From positions 6,138,001 through 6,202,000 of the forward strand of contig NZ_PJMX01000001.1 in assembly GCF_002846415.1 (NCBI RefSeq): a stretch of 64,000 nt of DNA. The letters are read 5' to 3'. This DNA comes from Streptomyces sp. TLI_146. Its GTDB lineage: Bacteria > Actinomycetota > Actinomycetes > Streptomycetales > Streptomycetaceae. A model generated the notes under the pieces. That model made no database searches and was not told the DNA's origin. It was given only the letters and a program-made list of their open reading frames with translations. Shown here piece by piece: positions 34,884 through 47,519 of the stretch (position 1 is the stretch's first letter; every line of letters begins with the position of its first letter). A program made the translations under genes and the position numbers.

Positions 34884-35333
34884 GTGAACCCTGTCGAGAA
34901 TGTCACCGCTCGTCCCATACATCCGTATGGGGCCTGGGTGGCACGCACGGGCCTCGCGCTGCTGCCCTTCGCCTCTCTGGGCCTGCTGTGCCCGGTGCCG
35001 TCGCTGGTGATCGCCCTGCGGCGGCACCGGAGCGCGGACTGGGTCGCCTTCGCGGTCTTCTGCGCGGTGTGGGTGTCCTGGGTGCTCCAGCTGGCGACCA
35101 CCCCGGACACCACGCACGGCATGCGGTTCGCGGCCGATGTGCTGCTCATCGGGCTGTCCACGGCCGGGGCGTCCGCGCACGCCTGGAAGGCGTGGCCGGC
35201 GGCCCGGCAGTCCCCGAACGAGAACGGCAAGAGCACGTACGGCAATCTCCCGGGGGGCGACCCCCGGACCCTCAGCAGTACGGACGGGGCAGAGGGGTAC
35301 AACGGACCGCAAGCGCAAGGTGAACAGCAGTGA
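34884..35333 (+). CDS. small membrane protein of unknown function
   Basis: This 149-residue protein has three likely membrane segments: TGLALLPFASLGLLCPVPSLV, WVAFAVFCAVWVSWVLQL and FAADVLLIGLSTAGASAHA. A polar C-tail rich in Gly/Asn/Gln (about 40 residues) follows. I do not recognise a family. The GTG at 34884 follows GAGGT. Its stop overlaps the next start (GTGA), so it is co-translated with the anchored binding-protein-like gene. Confidence 0.75.
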   Translation: MNPVENVTARPIHPYGAWVARTGLALLPFASLGLLCPVPSLVIALRRHRSADWVAFAVFCAVWVSWVLQLATTPDTTHGMRFAADVLLIGLSTAGASAHAWKAWPAARQSPNENGKSTYGNLPGGDPRTLSSTDGAEGYNGPQAQGEQQ

Positions 35334-35962
35334 AGCAGGTCAAGCAGGTGCGTCAGGCGCAGGCGGCGAAGGCCGCCCGCGAGGAGCAGGACAAGCAGGG
35401 CCGATACGCGCGCTACCGGCTGCGGTTCGCCCGGCTCACCGCGCTGGCGCGGGTGCACCGGCGCCGGGTGTGGATCGCCGCGGGCGCGGCGGCGGCCGTG
35501 GTCGTCGCCGCGGTGCTGGTCTCGGTGCTGGACAAGGACGACAAGCCGGGGCCGCCGGATCCGCGGGCCCGCCAGTACAAGAACGTCGACGCCTGTCTGC
35601 TGACCGGGGACAAGGGTGTGACCGAGGGCACCGAGGGCGCGCCGGTATGGGCGGGGATGCAGGACGCCTCGAAGGCCACCCACGCGCGCGTCAACTTCGT
35701 CCCGGTGACGGACGAGCAGACCGCCGCCAACGCCACCCCGTTCGTCAACAGCCTCATCCAGCGCTCCTGCGACGTGGTCGTGGCGGTCGGCAAGGCTCCG
35801 GTGGCGGCGGCCGAGGCGGCCGCGAAGGCCCACCCCAAGGTCCGCTTCGTGGTGGTCGGCGGCGAGGCCGCGGCGGCCAATGTGACGGCCGTGAAGCCGG
35901 GTGACGGAGTGAAGGCGGATGTCGCCCGGGCCGTCGAGCAGGGGGTCAATACACCCGGATAG
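35330..35962 (+). CDS. membrane-anchored protein resembling BMP-type binding proteins
   Basis: This 210-residue protein has a basic, Gln/Lys-rich N-terminus, one membrane helix (VWIAAGAAAAVVVAAVLVSVL) and an extracytoplasmic domain. YKNVDACLLTGDKGVTEG and VNSLIQRSCDVVVAVGKAPV recall the first lobe of BMP/PnrA-like nucleoside-binding proteins. At about 130 residues that domain holds only one lobe, so it may be a degenerate or sensor version. No lipobox is present; anchoring is by the helix. Function is not assigned. It lies 143 nt upstream of the RHS toxin gene on the same strand. Confidence 0.75.
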   Translation: MKQVKQVRQAQAAKAAREEQDKQGRYARYRLRFARLTALARVHRRRVWIAAGAAAAVVVAAVLVSVLDKDDKPGPPDPRARQYKNVDACLLTGDKGVTEGTEGAPVWAGMQDASKATHARVNFVPVTDEQTAANATPFVNSLIQRSCDVVVAVGKAPVAAAEAAAKAHPKVRFVVVGGEAAAANVTAVKPGDGVKADVARAVEQGVNTPG

Positions 35963-36105
35963 CCCGGAATTTGTTGTTCCGCACCGCATGAACATGGCAA
36001 AGAAATGTCAAAGGATCATGGGGTGGAAGCAACCTCCGTAAAACCGTGAGGCACGATCGCCTGGCTTTGTCTTCTGTAAGCCTCGCGTAAGTAAAGGCTG
36101 CCTCA

Positions 36106-39100
36106 ATGCGCGCTCGATGGGCTCGAACGTCCCGTCTCTTGTTTCCACCCGGGAGAACCGGACACCGCAGGGCCAGGAGGATCGCCCTCCTGGTCCTGCT
36201 GGCTTTCTCCTTCATGCTGACGACCGAGACGGCGGAGGCCACCGGGGCGACGCTGCCCCGGCTGTCGATGCCCAAGTGGTCCCTGTCGGGCCTGTGGGAG
36301 TGGGCCAACAAGTCCCCGCTCGACACCCCGGACCAGCAGGGCGGCACCGCGCGCGGCAAGAGCCACAGCGCCTCCGCCAAGCAGACCCGGGCCAAGGGCG
36401 GCAACGGCCACCGGCCCGGCAAGGGCAAGGGCGAGCTCGGTGCGTACGAGCGGCCGCAGGACAAGGCCGAGTTGACGAAGACCGGCAAGGCGGCCGGGAA
36501 CGCCAAGAGCTTCGACGCGCGCACCAGCAGGCGCGACGCCAAGAAGTCCACGGCGACCTCGGACTTCTACACCAACACCGACGGCTCCACGACGGTGCGC
36601 CACTACACCGGCCGCTCCAACTTCAAGGCCGCCGACGGCAGCTGGAAGCAGATCGACACCAAGCTGCGCGAGGAGAAGGGCGGCCGGCTGGTCGAGAACG
36701 CCAACTCGCTCGGCGTCGCCTTCGCGCCCGACGCGGTCGCCCCCGACCTCGCCTCGGTCGACTTCGGCTCCGGGCGCTCGCTCTCGTACGGGCTGCACGG
36801 CGCCGCCAAGAGCGAGCCGGTGGTCGACGGTGACTCCACCGCCACGTACGACAACGTTTTCAAGGACACCGACCTCAAGCTGTCGCCGCTCGCCGAGGGC
36901 TTCAAGGAGCGGATCGTCCTGCGCTCCAAGGCGGCGCCCAACACCTGGGTCTTCCCGCTGAAGACCAAGGGGCTCACCCCGAAGATCGCGGACAACGGCG
37001 ACGTGGTGTTCACCGACGCCGACGGCAAGGTGACCGCGACCGTCCCGCACGCCTTCATGGAGGACTCGAAGATCGACCCGCGCTCGGGCGACGCCGCCCA
37101 GTCCCGCGCGGTCCGCTACGAGCTCACCACCCTGGACGGCGCCCCCGCGCTGCGGATGACCGCCGACCGGGCCTGGCTGGACGACCCGAAGCGGGTCTTC
37201 CCGGTCACCGTCGACCCGACGGTGACGGCCAGCAACTCGACGTACACCCAGAACACCATCGGCGGGGACCACTCCACCGAGAACATGATCAAGGTGGGGT
37301 CGTACGACTCCGGCACCAACAAGGCGAACTCGTTCCTCCAGTTCTCCTCGCTGGGCACCACGCTGGCGGGCCAGAAGGTCACCGCCGCGACCCTGAACGT
37401 GTACGCGGTCTGGTCCTCGACCTGCACCGCCGAGCCGTTCAACGTCCACCCGGTCACCAAGGCCTGGACGCCCTCCACGGTCACCAGCTACCCCGGCCCG
37501 ACCTACGGCTCGGCGATCGGCTCGGCGACGGTGGCGCCCGGCGCGTCCTGCACCAACTCCTCCAGCTCCACGAGCGTCGGCGTGAAGATGCCCGTCCCGC
37601 TCAACACGAGCTGGTTCAACACGGTCGCGGGCGGCGGTGCCAACTACGGCCTCGCGATGACCGCGATCACCAGTGACATGCTGCACTGGAAGAAGTTCCA
37701 CTCGGACAACTCCACCACCGCGGGCTTCCGCCCGGCCCTGGACCTGACCTACACGGCCAACGCCGCCCCGCAGATCAACGCCCAGTACCCGCCGGAGAAC
37801 TACCAGGCCAACACGCTCCGCCCGGAGCTCACGGTCTACGCGACCGACGCCGACCACGGCCCGAGCGCCCTGTCGTACTCCTTCGACGTCTTCGACGCGG
37901 ACAGCGGCAGCCAGACCCCGGTCGTCAGCTCCGGCACCCTCACCCAGGGCGCCTGGGCGATCCCGGCCGGCAAGCTGAAGTGGTCCAAGAACTACCTCTG
38001 GTTCGCCACCGTCAGCGACGGCACCAACGCGGTGTCGTACGACAGCCGGTTCACCACCGCCGTGCCGCAGCCCCCGGTGACCTCGGGCCTCAGCCAGAAC
38101 ACCGACGGCCACGAGTTCGACCCCAGCGACGGCAACTACACCACCGACGACACCGACGCGGACGTCGAGGTCACCGGGCCCTCGCTCTCCATCGAGCGCT
38201 CCTACAACAGCCTCGACCCGCGCCAGGACAGCGCGTTCGGCGCGGGCTGGGCGACCATCGCGGACATGAAGGCCGCCGAGGTCAAGGACAGCTCCGGCGC
38301 GGTCACCAGCGTGGTCATCACCTACCCCGGCGGTGAGCAGGTCGCCTTCGGCCGCAACACCGACGGCACCTTCGTCCCGCCGCTCGGCCGGTACGCCCGC
38401 TTCCAGGCGGTCACCGGCGGCTACACGCTGGTCGACAAGGACTTCACCACCTACAGCTTCACCCAGACGACGGCCAAGGCCGGGGTCTACGCGATCAAGA
38501 CCATCACGGACTTCGCGAACCGCGGTGAGACGTTCAGCTACACCAACAACCAGCTGACCAAGATCACGAACACCACGTCCAACCGTTCGCTGACCCTCGC
38601 CTGGCAGACCCCCGCGGGCGCCACCGCCGCGCACGTCAACACGGTCGCCACCGACCCGTCGACCGCGGGCGACGCGTCCACCGCGCAGACCTGGCAGTAC
38701 AGCTACACCGGTGACCAGCTCACCAAGGTCTGCCCGCCCGCCGACTGGTCCAAGTGCATCACCTACGGGTACGCCACCGGCAACCACTACCGCACCACGG
38801 TCCTGGACGAGGACCCGTTCGCGTACTGGCGGCTCGGCGAGGCGGCCGGTGACGGTGTCGCCAAGGACGCGGTCGACCTCAACCAGGGCAAGTACAACGG
38901 CATCTACCACAACGTGACCACTGGGGGCACGGGCGTGCTCGCCGGGTCCACCCAGCCGGCCGCCACGTTCAACGGCACCAGCAGCTACGTGGAGATACCC
39001 AGCGCCCCGGGCGCGACCCCCTCGTACGCGAGCGTCTCGCTCTGGTTCAAGACCTCCCAGGCGGGCGGTGTCCTCTTCTACTACGGCGACAAGCCGCTGA

Positions 39101-42100
39101 GCGACCCCGACCCGGTGGGCACCACGACCCACAACACCCCGGCGGTCTACGTCGGCACCGACGGCAAGCTGCACGGCTGCTTCGCCTCGTCGCCCGGCTG
39201 CAACACCACGATCGTCTCCGCCGCCGCCGTCAACGACAACAAGTGGCACCAGGCCGTCCTCACCGGCGCCGCCACCACCATGTCGCTCTACCTCGACGGC
39301 GTCTCGCAGGGCTCCAAGTCCGGCACCATCAACGACTGGGCGCAGCCCTACCTGACCCTCGGCGCCGGTGTGAACACCGACGGCTGGCCGAACATGAACG
39401 CGGCCGACCCGCTCGGCCACTTCAGCGGCCAGCTCGCCGAGGCGGCGATCTACTCCGAGCCGCTGAGCCAGGACGTCATCACCGCGCAGTACCAGGCGGC
39501 GACCCGGCCGGCCGGGCTGCTCAACAAGATCACCACGCCGAACGGCAAGATCCAGAGCTCCGTCACCTACTCCACCGCCGACGACCTGGTCACCCAGGCG
39601 GTCGACGGCGACGGCGGCACCTGGAAGCTCAACCCGGCCACCGTGACCGGCTCCTCGCAGGTCTACCGCTCGGCCGTGATGGGCGCCGCCCCCTCCGGGT
39701 ACTGGCGCCTCGGTGACGTCCAGGGCGCGCCGCAGGCCGCCAACGAGGTGCACACCGGCTTCGGCACCTACAACACGGTGACCCAGGGCGCGGAGGGTCC
39801 GTTCGGCCCCGACGACGCGACGGCGGTCGACTTCGACGGCGCCGCCTCCTACGCCGAGCTGCCGTACGCCCCGCTGCACCGCTCCGGCAACCGCGCGATC
39901 GAGCTGTGGTTCCGCACCGCCAAGCCCGGTGTGATCGCGGCCGACCAGGCCCGGGTCCCGGGCGACCCGGCGGGCGCGGGCGCCGCCTACTCGCCGCTGA
40001 TGTACGTGGGCGCGGACGGCAAGCTGCGCGGCCACTGGTGGAGCGCCACCGGCAGCGGCACGACCGACTTCGGCTCCAAGGCGGCGGTCACCGACAACGC
40101 CTGGCACCACGCGGTCCTCTCCGCCTCCGGCACCACCCAGACGCTCTACCTGGACGGCGAGAAGCAGGCCGACTACACCGGCGCCGCCGGTGACCAGACG
40201 ACCACCCGCACCTTCATCGGCGCGGGCTTCACCAAGGGCTGGATCAGCTCGCCCTCCGACGTCAGCTACTTCGACGGCTCGATCGCCGAGGTCGCGTTCT
40301 ACGACGCGCCGCTGACCGCGGACGAGGTCGGCCGCCACTACTCGGCCGCCAAGGCGTCCGCCGGCACCGCGCCGGTGCGCACGGTCAAGCTGACCGACCC
40401 GACCGACAAGACGCTGACCTACGTGTACGACGCGGAGCTGGGCAACCGGCTGCTCGCCGCGACCGACACCGGGGGCAACCGGACGACGTACGGGTACGAC
40501 ACGTCCGGCTTCCTGCACACCGTCACGGACGCCAACGGCAACCGCTCGGTGACCGGCCACGACGTGCGCGGCAACACGGTCTCCACGACCACCTGCCAGA
40601 ACACCGCGGCCAACAGCTGCGCCACCGAGTACTACACGTACTACCCGGACGCGACCACCCTGTTCCCGACGATGGACCCGCGCAACGACCTGGTGCTCAC
40701 CGAGCGCGACGGCCGTTCCTCGGGCCCCACGGACAACACGTACCTCACCAGCTACACCTATGACACGAGCGGAAACGTCACTTCGGTGACCACCCCGCCG
40801 GTGCCGGGCTCGCCCGCGGGCCGTACGGCCTCCACGGTCTACACCACCGCGACCACGGTCGCGGCCGAGGGCGGCACCAACTACGCCCCGGCCGGACTCG
40901 TCGCCGAGGTGCGCACACCGGGTGGCCGCAGCACCAAGTACACCTACTTCAAGAACGGCGACCTGGCGCAGATCACCGACGCCAACGGCGCCTCGGTGAA
41001 GTACACGTACGACAACCTGGGCCGCCAGATCACCAAGACCGAGGTCTCCGACTCCTACCCGGCGGGTCTGACGACCACGCTGGCGTACGACAAGGACGAC
41101 CAGGTCATCTCGGAGATCAGCCCCAAGGTCACCAACCGGGTCACCGGCGCGGTGCACCAGGCGAAGTCGACGACCGTCTACGACCCGGACGGCAACGTCC
41201 AGTCCCAGACGGTCGCGGACGCCACCGGCGGCGACACCGCGCGGGTCACCTCGATGACGTACGACGCGTACAACCGGGTCGCGACCCGGACGGACCCGGG
41301 CGGCGACACCACCGCGTTCGAGTACGACGTCTACGGCAACAAGGTCAAGGAGACGGACCCGGCCGGGAACGTCAACGAGTACACCTTCGACGCCGACGGC
41401 AGGCCGCTCACCACCAGCCTGCTCAACTACACGGGCGACCCCAACAGCCCGTCCGCTCCCACCAAGCTGGTGCAGGAGTCGCGGGCGTACGACCCGGCGG
41501 GCCGGCTCGCGTCGATCACCGACGCGATGGGCTGGGTGACCGAGTACACCTACACCGACGACGGCCTCTCGGCCACGGTGGTGCGCAGGGACCCGCAGAA
41601 CAACAAGGCGTTCACCGAGCAGGCGAACACCTATGACGCGGCCGGGAACCTGACCAAGCAGGTCACCAACGACGGCACCACGACCACCTCGTTCACGGTG
41701 GACGCGGCCGACCGTACGACCTCGACCACGATGGACCCGGGCGGGCTCGCCCGGACCAACAAGGTCTCCTACGACCCGGACGACAACGTCGTGTCCGAGA
41801 CGGACTACGACCCGACCGGCGACACCAGCACCACCGACACGCGCTACGACGCGCTCGGCAACGTCACCGGCACCACCGTCCACGACGGCACCACCGCGCC
41901 GGTCGGCCGCTGGAAGTTCAACGAGACCAGCGGCACCAACGCGGCGGACTCCTCCGGCGGCAACAACAAGGTCACCTTCGGCTCCGGCGTCACCCGCTCC
42001 ACCGAGCAGGGCGGCAGCGCGGTCTTCGACGGCACGGCCAACGCGTACGGCCAGGGCACCGGCCCGGCCGTCAACACCAACGGCAGCTTCACCGTCTCGA

Positions 42101-45100
42101 CCTGGGTGAAGCTGGCCGACACCACCGCCAACCACACGTTCGTCTCGCAGGACGGCACGGCCGACCACGGCTTCCAGCTGTACTACTCGACGGCGTACGG
42201 CTGGTCGTTCAACCGGACCTCCGGCGACGTGGCGTCCCCGACGCTGGCCCGTGCCACCTCCGGCACGGCGGCGGTGACGGCCAACACCTGGACGCACCTG
42301 ACGGGTGTCTACGACGCGGCGGCCGGTGAGATCCGGCTGTTCGTCAACGGCGCGCTGAAGGCGACCACCCCGTACAGCGGCTCCTGGGAGGCCACCGGGC
42401 CGCTCCAGATCGGCCGCCGTATGTCGGGCGGCACGCAGGGCGAGTACCACAAGGGCTCCCTCGCGGACGTCCAGGTCTACGGCGAGGCGCTCACCGCGAC
42501 GCAGGTCTCCGGCGTCTACGGCAAGACCCTGCCCGCGGCGGGCAGCTCGGTGCGCACCACCAGCTGGAAGCTGGACCAGCGCGGCATGCCCCTGTCGATG
42601 ACCGACGCCAACGGCGCGACCACCGACTACGGCTACGACGAGTCGGGCCAGCAGACCAGCGTCACCGAGCCGGCGGTCAACGCCGAGCAGAACGGCGGCA
42701 CCCCGGTCTCCGTCCGCCCGGTCTCGATGACCGGTTACAACACGTTCGGCGAGGAGACCGAGTCCTCGGACCCGCTCGGCAACGTGACCGTGACGGCCTA
42801 CGACGGCGAGGGCCAGGAGGCGTCCACGACGCTTCCCGACTACACCCCGCCGGGCGCCACCACGCCGATCAAGGCGGTGAGCTGGAACGAGTACAACCAC
42901 CTCGGCCAGGTCTCCGCGGAGGTCGACCCGCTGGGCAACCGCACCGAGTACACCTACACCCAGCTGGGCGACCTGGCCTCGGTGAAGGAGCCGGGCGGCG
43001 ACACCACGCGCTACACCTACGACACCAACGGCGACCAGCTCTCGGCGACCCGCCCCAACGGCGCCCGCCAGGAGTCGACCTACGACTACCTGGGCCGCGA
43101 GCTCACCAGCACGGACATCGTCCGCCAGCCCACCCAGCGGGCGTACACGGCGATCAACTACTACGACGCGCCGGGGCAGCAGCTGTCCAAGGTGGTGAGC
43201 CCGGCGGGAGTGAGCGAGTCCTACGGGTACAACGCGCTGGGTGAGGTCACGTCCACCACGGACGGGGCCAACAACACGACGCGGTTCACGTACGACCAGG
43301 ACGGGCAGATACTGACGTCCACGGATCCGGACGGGACGAGCACCAAGAACACGTATGACGGGTTCGGTCAGCTGGTCTCGATGAGCGACCTGGACGCGAC
43401 CGGCAAGGTGCTGCGGACCACCAGCTCGACGTACGACCGGATGGGCCGGCAGGCCTCGGTGACCGACTTCCGCGGGCACACCACCAACTTCACGGTGGAC
43501 GCGACCGGAATGATCACCAAGGCCGTGCAGCCGGTCTCCGCGACCGAGTCGATCACGGCGACCTTCGGGTACGACGTGGCGGGCAACAGGACGCGGTTCA
43601 CCGACGGCCGCAACAACGCCTTCCTCACGACGTACAACTCGTGGGGCAGCCCGGAGTCGACGATCGAGCCGGCCACGCCCGCCTATCCCAACGCGGCCGA
43701 CCGCACCTTCACCACGACCTATGACGCCAACGGGCGGGTGAAGGAGGAGCGTTCGCCCGGTGGGGTGAAGGTCGTCGACGACTACGACGCGAAGGGACGA
43801 CTGACCAAGCAGACCGGCACCGGTGCCGAGGCGGCCACGGCCGACCACACCTACGGCTATGACGCCGACGACCGGATCACCTCGGTGACCGGCACCGACG
43901 CCGACACCGGCAAGGACACGTTCAGCTACGACGACCGGGGCCAGCTCCTGTCGACGAGCGGCGCCTCCGGCTCCTCCTCCTTCGCCTACAACGGCGACGG
44001 CAGGATGACCACGCGCACCGACGCGTCCGGTACCTCCACCTACGGCTATGACACCGCGGGACGGCTGTCCACGGTCAACGACGGCGCCACCGGCTCGACG
44101 CTGACCTACGGCTACGACGTCAACAGCAACGTCAAGTCGATCGACTACGGCACCGGCAAGGCCAAGCGCGCCTTCGGCTACGACGCCCTGGAGCAGCTCA
44201 CGTCGGACACCCTGACCTCCCCGACCGGCAAGACGCTGGCCTCGGTCAACTACGGGTACGACGAGAACGGCAACGAGACGTCGAAGACGACGACCGGGGT
44301 CGCGGGCGCCTCCGCCAACACGTACACCTACGACTGGGCGAACCGCCTGTCGTCCTGGAACAACGGGACGACGACGGAGAGCTACGGCTACGACGCCTCC
44401 GGCAACCGGACACGCGTGGGCGGCGACACCTACACCTACGACGCCCGCAACCAGCTCACCTCCGACGGGCACAACGCGTACGCGTACACCGCCCGCGGCA
44501 CCATGAGCTCGATGACGGACGACGGCAACAAGGTCAGCGTCATCAAGGCGGACGCGTTCAACCGGGTGATCAACGAGGGCGACCGTACGTACGCGTACGA
44601 CGGTCTGGACCGGGTGCTCACCGCCAGTGACCCCGGCACCGGCCCGCTGTTCACCTTCCAGTACAGCGGCCTGGGCAACGACGTGGCCTCCGACGGCTCG
44701 TCGACCTACAGCCGCAACGGCGACGGCGGGCTGCTCGGCATCAAGTCGGGCACCAGTTCCGTGCTGGCGATGACCGATGTCCACAGCGATGTCATCGCGC
44801 AGTTCACGGCGGGCGGCGAGGCGCTGTCGGGGTCGACCACCTACTCGCCGTTCGGCAAGGTCAACCAGACCGCCACCATGCTGGGACAGCTCGGCTACCA
44901 GTCGGGTTGGACCGACCCCGAGACGGCCAAGGTCAATATGGCCGCTCGCTGGTACTCGCCGCAGACCGGCCAGTTCAACAGCCGGGACACGGCGGACGTG
45001 GACGGCCTGCCGGCCTCGATCGGCGCCAACAAGTTCGCCTACGCCAACGCCAACCCGATGACCATGACCGACCCCACCGGTCACTGGAGCTTCGGCGGGG

Positions 45101-46842
45101 CCTGGAAGAAGTTCAAGAAGAAGGTCAAGCACGTCGCCAAGTCCGCTTGGCACAAGACGAAGAAGGCCGTCAAGCACGTCGCCAAGGCCGTCAAGAAGGC
45201 CGCGAAGAAGATCAAGCACGCGGTCAAGAAGGCGGTCAAGCGGGTCAAGCACGCGGTCCGCAAGGCCGTGCACTACGTGCACGATGCCGTCAAGAAGGTC
45301 AAGAGATACGTCAAGCGGACGTACAAGCGGGTCAAGAAGTACGTCCACAAGGTCGTCAGGACCGTCAAGCGCGCGGTGAAGCACGCGGCCAAGGTGATCA
45401 AGAGCGTCGCCCACAAGGTGGTCAAGGCGGCCAAGAAGGTCGGCAGAGCGGTCAAGAAGGCCGTGAAAGCCACCGCCAACTATGTGAAGCAGCACGCGGC
45501 AACCATCGTCCCCATCGTCGCGGGCATCGCGGCCGCCGTCGTCTGTACGGCGGCGACGGCAGGTGTCGGTGCGGTGGCCTGCGCGGTCGGCGCGGGTGCT
45601 CTGATCAACTCACTCGGCTACGCGATGAGCGACGGGCCGCACACCCTGAGCGGTTTCCTCGGTGCCGCCGCGGTCGGCGCGGCCACCGGACTGATCGGTA
45701 TGGGTGCGGGTGCGGTCGCCGGACGGGCCCTGAGCACGGCGGTCAGCGCCGTGACCCGGGGCGCGGTGACAGGCGCGGCCAGTGGTGCCGCGGAGAGCGC
45801 CGCCACCTACGGCGTCTCCTGCTCCAGCAGCCAGGAGGGCTGCAGCGTCAGTGGCGCTGCCAAGGCGACGGTGACGGGTGCCGCGCTCGGCGGTATCTTC
45901 GGCGCCGCGCTCAGCAAGTACGGCCGCAAGGGGTGCACCCCGCACAGCTTCACCCGCAACACCCCGGTGCTGGTGTCGACCACCGCCACCAAGGCCATCT
46001 CGCAGATCCGGGTCGGTGACTACGTACTGACCGCCGAGCCGGGCAAGGACAAGAAGGAGAGACACCGGGTCAAGGCGGTCATCGTCACCAAGACCGACCG
46101 CGACTACGTCGACGTCGTCGTGGGTTCGAAGTCCGGTCCCAAGACGATCCAGACCACCGCTCACCACCAGTTCTACGACGCCACGACGAACGCCTGGACC
46201 CAGGCGGCCGACCTGAAGAAGCAGCACGCCCTTCAGGGGGCGGACGGCGGACGGACGCCGATCCTCGACATCCGCTCCTACCGGTCCGCGCGGATCACCT
46301 ACGACCTGAGCGTCGACGGCCTGCACACGTACTTCGTGGCGGCGGGCGACTCCCAGGTCCTGGTCCACAACGCCGACGACGTCTGCCCGACCGGCGGACC
46401 GGCACCCGACGGGAACGGCCAGTGGCGGCACGGCGGACGGTTCGCGGCCAACCCGGACCGCATCCAGCCCGGTCAGGTGCACCCCGACGGCATGCTGCGG
46501 GGGACCAACGAGGCCGGGCACGTCACCAGCCGGCCCTCGTTCCGTACCCCCACGGTGCGGCAGATGTGGGACGACGCCGAGGTCGCACCGGGGCCGCACG
46601 GGTCGCAGGGTAGAGTCTGCTCCCGCGGTGGCCCGAGCTGCGAGGGTGTGGTCTACGACGATCCGTACGACCCGAACGGCGGACCCCGCATGTGGGACGG
46701 CGGGCACTTCCCGGAGTCGTGGAGCAACCGCAAGTTCCCTCCGAACGTCACGCGTGAAGAAGTCCTGGACAACTACAACACCGATGTCCAGCTCGAATGC
46801 AGGCCGTGCAATCGCGCGGCCGGAAACAGACAGGACGGATAG
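36106..46842 (+). CDS. secreted RHS/YD-repeat polymorphic toxin with HINT domain and nuclease tip
   Basis: This 3578-residue protein has a signal peptide or membrane start (RRARRIALLVLLAFSFMLT, residues 25-46), then a low-complexity basic linker. A DNRLRE-like domain covers about 366-548 and a fibronectin-like segment 550-690. The RHS entry is SLSIERSYNSLDPRQDSAFG at about 695. LamG-like modules lie near 902-1132, 1186-1418 and 1932-2142, set among YD repeats (TYTYDxxG, many copies) up to about 2930. The RHS core is AARWYSPQTGQFNSRD...ANANPMTMTDPTG, about 2945-2990. It is followed by a Lys/Ala/Val/His amphipathic stretch (3000-3120), a Gly/Ala-rich hydrophobic stretch, and a HINT domain from CTPHSFTRNTPVLV to VLVHNAD (about 3277-3425). 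The last 150 residues contain TVRQMWDDAE, MWDGGHFPESW and VQLECRPCNRAAGN, as in GH-E/HNH nuclease toxins. The product is likely a contact-dependent or shed antibacterial toxin. Confidence 0.93.
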   Translation: MRARWARTSRLLFPPGRTGHRRARRIALLVLLAFSFMLTTETAEATGATLPRLSMPKWSLSGLWEWANKSPLDTPDQQGGTARGKSHSASAKQTRAKGGNGHRPGKGKGELGAYERPQDKAELTKTGKAAGNAKSFDARTSRRDAKKSTATSDFYTNTDGSTTVRHYTGRSNFKAADGSWKQIDTKLREEKGGRLVENANSLGVAFAPDAVAPDLASVDFGSGRSLSYGLHGAAKSEPVVDGDSTATYDNVFKDTDLKLSPLAEGFKERIVLRSKAAPNTWVFPLKTKGLTPKIADNGDVVFTDADGKVTATVPHAFMEDSKIDPRSGDAAQSRAVRYELTTLDGAPALRMTADRAWLDDPKRVFPVTVDPTVTASNSTYTQNTIGGDHSTENMIKVGSYDSGTNKANSFLQFSSLGTTLAGQKVTAATLNVYAVWSSTCTAEPFNVHPVTKAWTPSTVTSYPGPTYGSAIGSATVAPGASCTNSSSSTSVGVKMPVPLNTSWFNTVAGGGANYGLAMTAITSDMLHWKKFHSDNSTTAGFRPALDLTYTANAAPQINAQYPPENYQANTLRPELTVYATDADHGPSALSYSFDVFDADSGSQTPVVSSGTLTQGAWAIPAGKLKWSKNYLWFATVSDGTNAVSYDSRFTTAVPQPPVTSGLSQNTDGHEFDPSDGNYTTDDTDADVEVTGPSLSIERSYNSLDPRQDSAFGAGWATIADMKAAEVKDSSGAVTSVVITYPGGEQVAFGRNTDGTFVPPLGRYARFQAVTGGYTLVDKDFTTYSFTQTTAKAGVYAIKTITDFANRGETFSYTNNQLTKITNTTSNRSLTLAWQTPAGATAAHVNTVATDPSTAGDASTAQTWQYSYTGDQLTKVCPPADWSKCITYGYATGNHYRTTVLDEDPFAYWRLGEAAGDGVAKDAVDLNQGKYNGIYHNVTTGGTGVLAGSTQPAATFNGTSSYVEIPSAPGATPSYASVSLWFKTSQAGGVLFYYGDKPLSDPDPVGTTTHNTPAVYVGTDGKLHGCFASSPGCNTTIVSAAAVNDNKWHQAVLTGAATTMSLYLDGVSQGSKSGTINDWAQPYLTLGAGVNTDGWPNMNAADPLGHFSGQLAEAAIYSEPLSQDVITAQYQAATRPAGLLNKITTPNGKIQSSVTYSTADDLVTQAVDGDGGTWKLNPATVTGSSQVYRSAVMGAAPSGYWRLGDVQGAPQAANEVHTGFGTYNTVTQGAEGPFGPDDATAVDFDGAASYAELPYAPLHRSGNRAIELWFRTAKPGVIAADQARVPGDPAGAGAAYSPLMYVGADGKLRGHWWSATGSGTTDFGSKAAVTDNAWHHAVLSASGTTQTLYLDGEKQADYTGAAGDQTTTRTFIGAGFTKGWISSPSDVSYFDGSIAEVAFYDAPLTADEVGRHYSAAKASAGTAPVRTVKLTDPTDKTLTYVYDAELGNRLLAATDTGGNRTTYGYDTSGFLHTVTDANGNRSVTGHDVRGNTVSTTTCQNTAANSCATEYYTYYPDATTLFPTMDPRNDLVLTERDGRSSGPTDNTYLTSYTYDTSGNVTSVTTPPVPGSPAGRTASTVYTTATTVAAEGGTNYAPAGLVAEVRTPGGRSTKYTYFKNGDLAQITDANGASVKYTYDNLGRQITKTEVSDSYPAGLTTTLAYDKDDQVISEISPKVTNRVTGAVHQAKSTTVYDPDGNVQSQTVADATGGDTARVTSMTYDAYNRVATRTDPGGDTTAFEYDVYGNKVKETDPAGNVNEYTFDADGRPLTTSLLNYTGDPNSPSAPTKLVQESRAYDPAGRLASITDAMGWVTEYTYTDDGLSATVVRRDPQNNKAFTEQANTYDAAGNLTKQVTNDGTTTTSFTVDAADRTTSTTMDPGGLARTNKVSYDPDDNVVSETDYDPTGDTSTTDTRYDALGNVTGTTVHDGTTAPVGRWKFNETSGTNAADSSGGNNKVTFGSGVTRSTEQGGSAVFDGTANAYGQGTGPAVNTNGSFTVSTWVKLADTTANHTFVSQDGTADHGFQLYYSTAYGWSFNRTSGDVASPTLARATSGTAAVTANTWTHLTGVYDAAAGEIRLFVNGALKATTPYSGSWEATGPLQIGRRMSGGTQGEYHKGSLADVQVYGEALTATQVSGVYGKTLPAAGSSVRTTSWKLDQRGMPLSMTDANGATTDYGYDESGQQTSVTEPAVNAEQNGGTPVSVRPVSMTGYNTFGEETESSDPLGNVTVTAYDGEGQEASTTLPDYTPPGATTPIKAVSWNEYNHLGQVSAEVDPLGNRTEYTYTQLGDLASVKEPGGDTTRYTYDTNGDQLSATRPNGARQESTYDYLGRELTSTDIVRQPTQRAYTAINYYDAPGQQLSKVVSPAGVSESYGYNALGEVTSTTDGANNTTRFTYDQDGQILTSTDPDGTSTKNTYDGFGQLVSMSDLDATGKVLRTTSSTYDRMGRQASVTDFRGHTTNFTVDATGMITKAVQPVSATESITATFGYDVAGNRTRFTDGRNNAFLTTYNSWGSPESTIEPATPAYPNAADRTFTTTYDANGRVKEERSPGGVKVVDDYDAKGRLTKQTGTGAEAATADHTYGYDADDRITSVTGTDADTGKDTFSYDDRGQLLSTSGASGSSSFAYNGDGRMTTRTDASGTSTYGYDTAGRLSTVNDGATGSTLTYGYDVNSNVKSIDYGTGKAKRAFGYDALEQLTSDTLTSPTGKTLASVNYGYDENGNETSKTTTGVAGASANTYTYDWANRLSSWNNGTTTESYGYDASGNRTRVGGDTYTYDARNQLTSDGHNAYAYTARGTMSSMTDDGNKVSVIKADAFNRVINEGDRTYAYDGLDRVLTASDPGTGPLFTFQYSGLGNDVASDGSSTYSRNGDGGLLGIKSGTSSVLAMTDVHSDVIAQFTAGGEALSGSTTYSPFGKVNQTATMLGQLGYQSGWTDPETAKVNMAARWYSPQTGQFNSRDTADVDGLPASIGANKFAYANANPMTMTDPTGHWSFGGAWKKFKKKVKHVAKSAWHKTKKAVKHVAKAVKKAAKKIKHAVKKAVKRVKHAVRKAVHYVHDAVKKVKRYVKRTYKRVKKYVHKVVRTVKRAVKHAAKVIKSVAHKVVKAAKKVGRAVKKAVKATANYVKQHAATIVPIVAGIAAAVVCTAATAGVGAVACAVGAGALINSLGYAMSDGPHTLSGFLGAAAVGAATGLIGMGAGAVAGRALSTAVSAVTRGAVTGAASGAAESAATYGVSCSSSQEGCSVSGAAKATVTGAALGGIFGAALSKYGRKGCTPHSFTRNTPVLVSTTATKAISQIRVGDYVLTAEPGKDKKERHRVKAVIVTKTDRDYVDVVVGSKSGPKTIQTTAHHQFYDATTNAWTQAADLKKQHALQGADGGRTPILDIRSYRSARITYDLSVDGLHTYFVAAGDSQVLVHNADDVCPTGGPAPDGNGQWRHGGRFAANPDRIQPGQVHPDGMLRGTNEAGHVTSRPSFRTPTVRQMWDDAEVAPGPHGSQGRVCSRGGPSCEGVVYDDPYDPNGGPRMWDGGHFPESWSNRKFPPNVTREEVLDNYNTDVQLECRPCNRAAGNRQDG

Positions 46843-46851
46843 CTGATCGCC

Positions 46852-47427
46852 ATGGCTGCTCTCGTCAACCACTTGGAAGCACGGCTCGGCCGGATGGTCG
46901 GGTCGTGGTCGGCGGCCGAGCAGTCCCCTCCGGGCACCCCCCAGGTCGGATACTTCACCGGGGGTGCCCTGGAGGGCGTCCAGTCCTTCGCCACCGTCGG
47001 GCTCTTCAGCACACCACTGGTCTCCCGCACCTCCGGCCGTCATCAGCACCTGGAACTGCTGGGGTGCAACCGGCCGCTCGCGGGTGACGAGTACGGCCCG
47101 TTCGCGGGAGTCCTGGAGTACGTGTCGGAGCGCCTGGTCACCAGCGGCGACGCGGTTCTGCGCGGGGACGTGATCTCCCTGCCGATGCCGCTGGCGCCGG
47201 GCAGTGTCCTGAGCTCCCTCTACGCGTCCTCTCCGGTGTACTTCGACGACGACTTCGCCGAGGTCGTCGTGGAGAACGGCACCACGGTCTCCGTGGTGTG
47301 GCTGGTGCCGATCGGCCCCTCGGAGGCGGCCTTCGTCAAGGAGAAGGGCTGGCCGGAGTTCGAGCAGGAGCTGGTCCGCCAGGACCCCGACCTGCTCGAT
47401 CTGCGCCGTCGGGAGATCACCCTGTGA
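46852..47427 (+). CDS. SUFU-family immunity protein of the RHS toxin
   Basis: This 191-residue cytoplasmic protein has no signal or membrane segment. VGYFTGGALEGVQSFATVGLFSTPL, HLELLGCNRPLAG, and the C-terminal VSVVWLVPIGPSEAAFVKEKGWPEFEQELV match the suppressor-of-fused (SUFU) domain. That domain is common as an immunity protein beside bacterial polymorphic toxins. The ATG is 9 nt after the toxin stop, the standard toxin-immunity arrangement. It presumably binds and blocks the nuclease tip. A strong bidirectional hairpin follows. Confidence 0.9.
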   Translation: MAALVNHLEARLGRMVGSWSAAEQSPPGTPQVGYFTGGALEGVQSFATVGLFSTPLVSRTSGRHQHLELLGCNRPLAGDEYGPFAGVLEYVSERLVTSGDAVLRGDVISLPMPLAPGSVLSSLYASSPVYFDDDFAEVVVENGTTVSVVWLVPIGPSEAAFVKEKGWPEFEQELVRQDPDLLDLRRREITL

Positions 47428-47458
47428 CGGCGGACTGAACGGCACGCGAGAAACGAGC

Positions 47459-47491
47459 GGTGCCCGGACCCCTTGTGGGGGTCCGGGCACC
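47459..47491. terminator. bidirectional terminator between immunity gene and M4 protease
   Basis: GGTGCCCGGACCCC (47459-47472) and GGGGTCCGGGCACC (47478-47491) are perfect 14-bp arms with a 5-nt loop, followed by TTTC. It lies between two convergent genes, 31 nt past the immunity stop. Confidence 0.9.
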
Positions 47492-47519
47492 TTTCACGTT
47501 CCGGTCAGCCGCCTGACCG

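Follow-up and report, generated by a model that had tools for sequence, protein, structure and literature searches.

A probable secreted RHS polymorphic toxin of Streptomyces sp. TLI_146 with an exchangeable GH-E/SUFU cassette and a linked upstream pair of membrane-protein genes

Several described systems bear on the RHS locus considered here. Tox-GH-E/Imm-SuFu pairs and RHS-HINT toxins, actinobacteria included, are entered in the catalogue of Zhang et al. (2012; PMC3482391). WapA of Bacillus subtilis and Streptococcus suis combines a Sec-type signal, an RHS shell and a polymorphic tip with its immunity gene, and is accompanied by displaced downstream orphans; in S. suis its export is supported by a sortase and by a dedicated SecF-like membrane protein encoded upstream (PMC12704120). 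UmbC of Streptomyces coelicolor has ALF repeats, a TAT signal and separate lectin subunits, together with a HINT domain that precedes an exchangeable C-terminal toxin and a downstream immunity gene; HINT and toxin are placed at the tip of the UmbC stalk in the umbrella-toxin paper, which cites structure 8w20 (PMC11062931). Bacterial teneurin-like proteins join a YD-repeat superfold to a variable C-terminal toxin and an immunity gene (PMC13018210).

The window analysed here is a stretch of 64,000 nucleotides of Streptomyces sp. TLI_146 (contig NZ_PJMX01000001.1, positions 6,138,001 to 6,202,000), and features lie on its plus strand unless stated otherwise. Its RHS locus very probably encodes a secreted polymorphic toxin for antagonism between bacteria, with a GH-E tip and SUFU immunity. 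The toxin and immunity part is of a kind catalogued in 2012, with the families of tip and immunity protein, the RHS repeats and the processing by HINT all in common; as far as consulted, that catalogue analyses no locus of this RHS family, for which an upstream gene pair and an allelic replacement are now added (PMC3482391). A sequence-only reading had described the assembly as poorly characterised. It was right that the toxin and immunity types are each known, but the assembly is less uncharacterised than it implied, since GH-E/SuFu pairs and actinobacterial RHS-HINT toxins were already in the catalogue.

The RHS gene (36106-46842) encodes 3578 aa, and third-position GC supports coding both here (0.96) and in the SUFU gene behind it (0.90). 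An antisense ORF of 3130 aa (36103-45495, minus strand) overlaps the gene and is most likely an artefact that the high GC and the repeats produce; the sense ORF won in codon-position gene calling. As read from the sequence, the protein runs from a signal-like N-terminus through a long region, DUF6531 and RHS repeats with LamG domains to the core, a cationic and a hydrophobic segment, HINT and the tip. The giant gene with YD repeats, RHS core, HINT and three LamG modules that had been proposed at the outset was thus recovered with Pfam and NCBIfam. The putative Sec signal peptide (aa 1-45, ...LLVLLAFSFMLTTETAEA; 36106-36240) was assigned by eye; it looks typical, and the pattern recurs in most of the relatives with a visible start. 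Between it and DUF6531 Pfam recognised no domain, and no cell-wall-binding domain in particular. The RHS repeats match in 27 stretches (Pfam, E 4e-84), the three LamG domains match Pfam Laminin_G_3 at aa 956-1125 (38971-39480; E 2.6e-15), aa 1244-1408 (39835-40329; E 9e-21, with a match to PDB 4qvs) and aa 1980-2135 (42043-42510; E 2.4e-28), and the RHS-associated core lies at aa 2913-2993 (44842-45084; NCBIfam Rhs_assc_core, TIGR03696, E 2.3e-15). RHS/YD repeats and an RHS-associated core in one protein are a mark of RHS polymorphic toxins.

The protein resembles WapA in its putative Sec-type signal, RHS shell, polymorphic tip with immunity gene and displaced downstream orphans, but has HINT in place of the DPxG-x18-DPxG border, carries three LamG domains, and yielded no LysM or other wall-binding domain in the searches (PMC12704120). 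A single DPTG stands at the end of the RHS core, followed by the cationic segment and HINT; of the border and the wall-binding domain that mark WapA, neither was recognised. The bacterial teneurin-like structures 9pt5 and 9ifo match the protein by sequence, in the YD/RHS part only, and its arrangement of HINT and LamG differs from theirs (PMC13018210). A type VI secretion Rhs effector was considered and rejected, there being no PAAR or VgrG-linked N-terminus and a putative signal sequence instead, as was a Tc toxin of the TcB/TcC kind, for which Pfam gave no SpvB/TcdB domain match.

Behind the core lies the cationic segment noticed earlier (aa 2992-3127; 45079-45486), which spans 136 aa with a net charge of +48. 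Its charge ranges from +28 to +62 in near-relative Streptomyces loci and is weak in distant genera. AlphaFold2 models it as one long helix at low confidence, HINT alone being reliable in the model of the shell C-terminus, and its matches to ZorA, Phasin and ApoLp were put down to composition. The hydrophobic Gly/Ala-rich segment that follows (aa 3128-3274; 45487-45927), a candidate membrane-insertion region, is kept throughout the relatives, including those in which the cationic segment before it is not conserved, and both segments may serve in membrane passage. The HINT domain extends from C3277 to N3422 (45934-46371; PT-HINT in Pfam at aa 3294-3423). C3277, T3351, H3354, H3421 and N3422 are invariant in 47/47 sequences, and the AlphaFold2 model (pLDDT about 90) has an intein/BIL fold with a TM score of 0.90 to 2lwy. 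Catalytic Cys, TxxH, C-terminal His-Asn and a predicted intein-like fold, the features of a pretoxin-HINT, are thus all present, and cleavage is predicted to follow N3422. By sequence, the domain matches the PDB entries 8w20/8w22 best; these were recognised as UmbC of the Streptomyces umbrella particles. The two proteins share a homologous HINT before an exchangeable C-terminal toxin, the genus and a downstream immunity gene, whereas the ALF repeats, TAT signal and separate lectin subunits of UmbC contrast with an RHS shell that has LamG built in (PMC11062931). An umbrella toxin was accordingly rejected as a classification: no ALF repeat appeared among the Pfam matches, and HINT alone is held in common.

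The tip of 155 aa (46372-46842) matches, when searched alone, the GH-E (HNH/EndoVII) family (PF14410) at E 1.8e-8 and 35.3 bits, above the curated cut-off of 25 bits. The GH, E, N and E motif residues given for Tox-GH-E in the 2012 catalogue (PMC3482391) are found in it as GGH, TREE, YN and LE. Among the tip homologues W-D-x-x-H, Y-N, L-E and C-N-R are invariant, as are the H, the N and the E of LE, the G of GH being variable. An AlphaFold2 model built from 3 sequences reached a pLDDT of 35, and the fold assignment rests on the profile match; the tip is most likely a nuclease that cuts DNA or RNA. The gene for the small protein of 191 aa (46852-47427) begins 9 nt after the RHS gene, as had been noted, and its product matches SUFU (PF05076; Pfam) at E 2.4e-16 and 60.5 bits, again with a cut-off of 25 bits. 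The profile searches that had been proposed as a check on tip and small protein were therefore borne out in both cases. A second SUFU gene elsewhere in the genome, at 5.82 Mb (G000:C1:5823694-5824173; L003 12578-13195), is only distantly similar (28% over 79 aa).

This tip is rare, being found in 2/393 Streptomyces genomes. The second of these (L097) has a tip and a SUFU protein that are each 64% identical to those of the window, with dN/dS of 0.21 for the tip and 0.39 for SUFU, indicative of purifying selection, and with a displaced RHS fragment just past the two genes. Two other actinobacteria, L103 and L104, have SUFU beside the tip, which in L103 is a short free-standing ORF; in L104 the tip frame looks degraded with SUFU behind it, possibly an immunity gene that has outlasted its toxin. 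On plasmid pBPHY02 of Paraburkholderia phymatum the GH-E tip ends a hemagglutinin-repeat protein (40% identity over 101 aa), SUFU adjoins it and a ShlB-type transporter gene lies nearby. This CdiA-type protein has the same tip and immunity families on a Gram-negative, two-partner-secretion-like carrier with no RHS. SUFU thus stands behind the tip of this subfamily in 5/5 cases, on at least two unrelated carriers and in two phyla, and no match to the tip was found in phages. The target of the toxin is a separate matter. YD-repeat cocoons occur in toxins against animals too, and Streptomyces encounters soil eukaryotes, so that fungi, protists, nematodes or insects could be thought of as the victims instead of bacteria. 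We regard this as very unlikely, since Pfam recognised no other Tc-type domain, a matching immunity gene is to be expected chiefly with a toxin able to poison cells like its producer, and the same pair of tip and immunity gene rides on the CDI-like carrier of Paraburkholderia.

A toxin directed at bacteria is also what the behaviour of the locus across relatives suggests. A single scan of a GTDB collection with the stretch from core to HINT gave 76 loci. For 43 Streptomyces shell proteins, that of the window included, all 903/903 shell pairs are homologous (median identity 71%), against only 51/903 pairs of their tips. Clustering of the 56 tips examined gave 33 groups, the largest of them inflated by a short common linker, and the Pfam types among the tips include NucA/NucB, EndoU, AHH, Endonuclease NS, GIY-YIG, deaminases and ADP-ribosyltransferases. 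Genes 3' of the tip follow suit: like tips have like genes, and unlike tips have mostly unlike ones. A conserved shell with a hypervariable C-terminal tip is a further hallmark of RHS polymorphic toxins. SUFU-like genes also stand behind two tips unlike the GH-E tip of the window (L013 and L036), in which CxxC/H/CxxC/Q can be made out by eye, the pattern given in the catalogue for the SuFu-associated NGO1392-like HNH family (PMC3482391). The genome has seven more RHS-core genes (L090-L096), at 5.08, 6.44, 5.26, 0.084 and 4.09 Mb of C1 and at 0.169 and 0.189 Mb of C2; where examined they have other tips and mostly a different small gene behind. Across its entire shell the 4.09-Mb gene has 45% identity, and by eye its tip looks deaminase-like. 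In L056, L072, L039, L126, L127 and L097 the intact RHS gene has orphan fragments of HINT or RHS on its 3' side, as is typical of tip displacement.

The exchange itself can be followed at the orthologous locus of Streptomyces melanogenes JCM 4398 (L012). Identity to the window is 96.8% over 35330-41606 and 86.7% over 41667-46371, and the right flank is 94.9% identical over 9.2 kb from 47452, the flanks of the cassette thus reaching up to 97%. Homology stops at 46371, the HINT-closing Asn codon, and resumes at 47452, at a terminator 24 nt past the SUFU stop, and because of these two breakpoints 46372-47451 is taken as one exchangeable cassette of tip and immunity gene. Between them the window has GH-E and SUFU, whose places are taken in S. 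melanogenes by a different tip and an unrelated gene of 120 aa. A terminator-like hairpin at the right edge, common to S. melanogenes, was located by folding at 47459-47491 (minimum free energy of 47445-47510, -39.6 kcal/mol; z -3.9). The RHS reading frame of L012 is disrupted at about 6.78-6.93 kb, whether in reality or by assembly error, and this allele may be partly inactive. In L017 the left flank is in common with the window and the sequence differs from the tip onward, and tips of several clusters occur among the 13 related loci that occupy one other chromosomal setting. To judge from these alignments, tip and immunity gene are swapped as one unit while the carrier is retained.

These observations bear directly on the proposal that the protein is a housekeeping or developmental cell-surface RHS protein, serving in adhesion, in the envelope or in a teneurin-like role, whose C-terminus would be incidental and whose neighbouring SUFU gene would have nothing to do with it. 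A surface protein could equally well carry LamG domains and a signal sequence, and the shell is under purifying selection (dN/dS 0.35, window versus L017), but a hypervariable tip on a conserved shell contradicts such a role, as do the exchange of tip and neighbour gene as a unit, their joint presence in a second phylum on a carrier unrelated to this one and the patchy occurrence of the closely related shell among Streptomyces; taken together these points leave it a most improbable explanation. The sequence-only reading had itself named a tip conserved in all strains, or a small gene outside any immunity family, as signs of a housekeeping role. Neither was found, and the comparison across strains that it had proposed gave the outcome it anticipated, with only the tip and the immunity gene swapped.

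How such a protein would leave the cell is suggested by two genes directly upstream, found by codon-position gene calling. The first, g149 (34884-35333), encodes a hydrophobic membrane protein of 149 aa, multi-TM by eye and with no Pfam family; about 90 bp near its end (35238-35330) are missing from two close relatives. The second, g210 (35330-35962), encodes 210 aa with a basic cytoplasmic N-tail, one TM anchor and an extracellular N-lobe of BMP/PnrA type. The g149 stop overlaps the g210 start (GTGA, 4 nt), and g210 ends 143 nt before the RHS gene. A g210 profile from 44 homologues matches PDB 7x0r (E 1.7e-8) and TmpC/PnrA 2fqw (E 1.1e-7), which makes the protein half of a BMP/PnrA-type binding protein, with two conserved Cys. 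The sequence-only reading had seen no obvious delivery apparatus nearby. It was correct in that no known toxin-injection apparatus was seen among the neighbour genes scanned (the others being glycogen/trehalose genes, an S8 and an M4 protease, two ABC exporters and an L,D-transpeptidase), but it had missed this conserved pair. The SecF-like protein and sortase upstream of S. suis WapA are a precedent for accessory genes, from which the pair of the window differs (PMC12704120).

The pair might instead stand outside the RHS system and owe its position to chance and to inheritance along with the locus. In four genomes (L126, L127, L129, L133) g149-g210 lies near eno and an FtsB-like gene and not directly 5' of an RHS gene; RHS genes or orphan HINT-tip fragments are close to the eno-site pair in L126 and L127, and the stretch read around one of the four contained no RHS. 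The two paralogous RHS loci of the TLI_146 genome that were checked are without the pair, as are three in Kutzneria. Against this, g210 precedes the RHS gene in the same orientation in 43/50 loci with enough upstream sequence (of the other 7/50, two in Actinomadura have it divergent, the three Kutzneria loci did not show it and two have an ORF fragment). The g210/RHS loci cover 22 unlike downstream settings, and the pair is present whatever the tip. In 29 loci a g149 homologue was found 5' of RHS, the sequence of most loci being cut near there. Among 150 Streptomyces genomes, all 11/11 with g210 at E <1e-20 hold the shell, which at E <1e-50 is found in 12/150 (Fisher p about 8e-16, with genomes counted without phylogenetic correction), and g210 has a dN/dS of about 0.2. 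A chance association is a possibility to which we give less weight, and consider rather doubtful. The linkage of the pair to the shell, as seen in these genomes, is strong, not absolute, and the two proteins are probably export or display accessories of the RHS protein. A fuller version, in which g149 and g210, the latter an anchored half of a PnrA/BMP protein put to new use, are dedicated partners that secrete, hold or fold the shell with any tip, so that the RHS family is a self-contained export-and-display system, has in our judgement an even chance of being right. No paper joining BMP proteins with RHS genes in Streptomyces was found, within an incomplete coverage of the literature; the association of the membrane pair with an RHS shell appears new, and together with the Streptomyces-specific architecture it appears to set the locus apart.

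A plausible course of events for the secreted toxin is that the protein would be exported by Sec and displayed outside the cell, probably aided by the two upstream membrane proteins. The YD-repeat shell would enclose the C-terminus, and the three LamG domains may bind a ligand on the target surface. Self-cleavage of HINT after Asn3422 would then free the tip, which the cationic helix and the hydrophobic Gly/Ala-rich segment may help across the target membrane, and the GH-E nuclease would cut nucleic acid within the target. SUFU, in the cytoplasm of the producer, would bind the tip and thereby protect self and kin.

Within Streptomyces the locus belongs to a candidate for a second large platform, one in which cassette exchange is directly visible at one chromosomal site. 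Its candidate accessory genes make the exit of an RHS toxin from Gram-positive cells testable by gene deletion.
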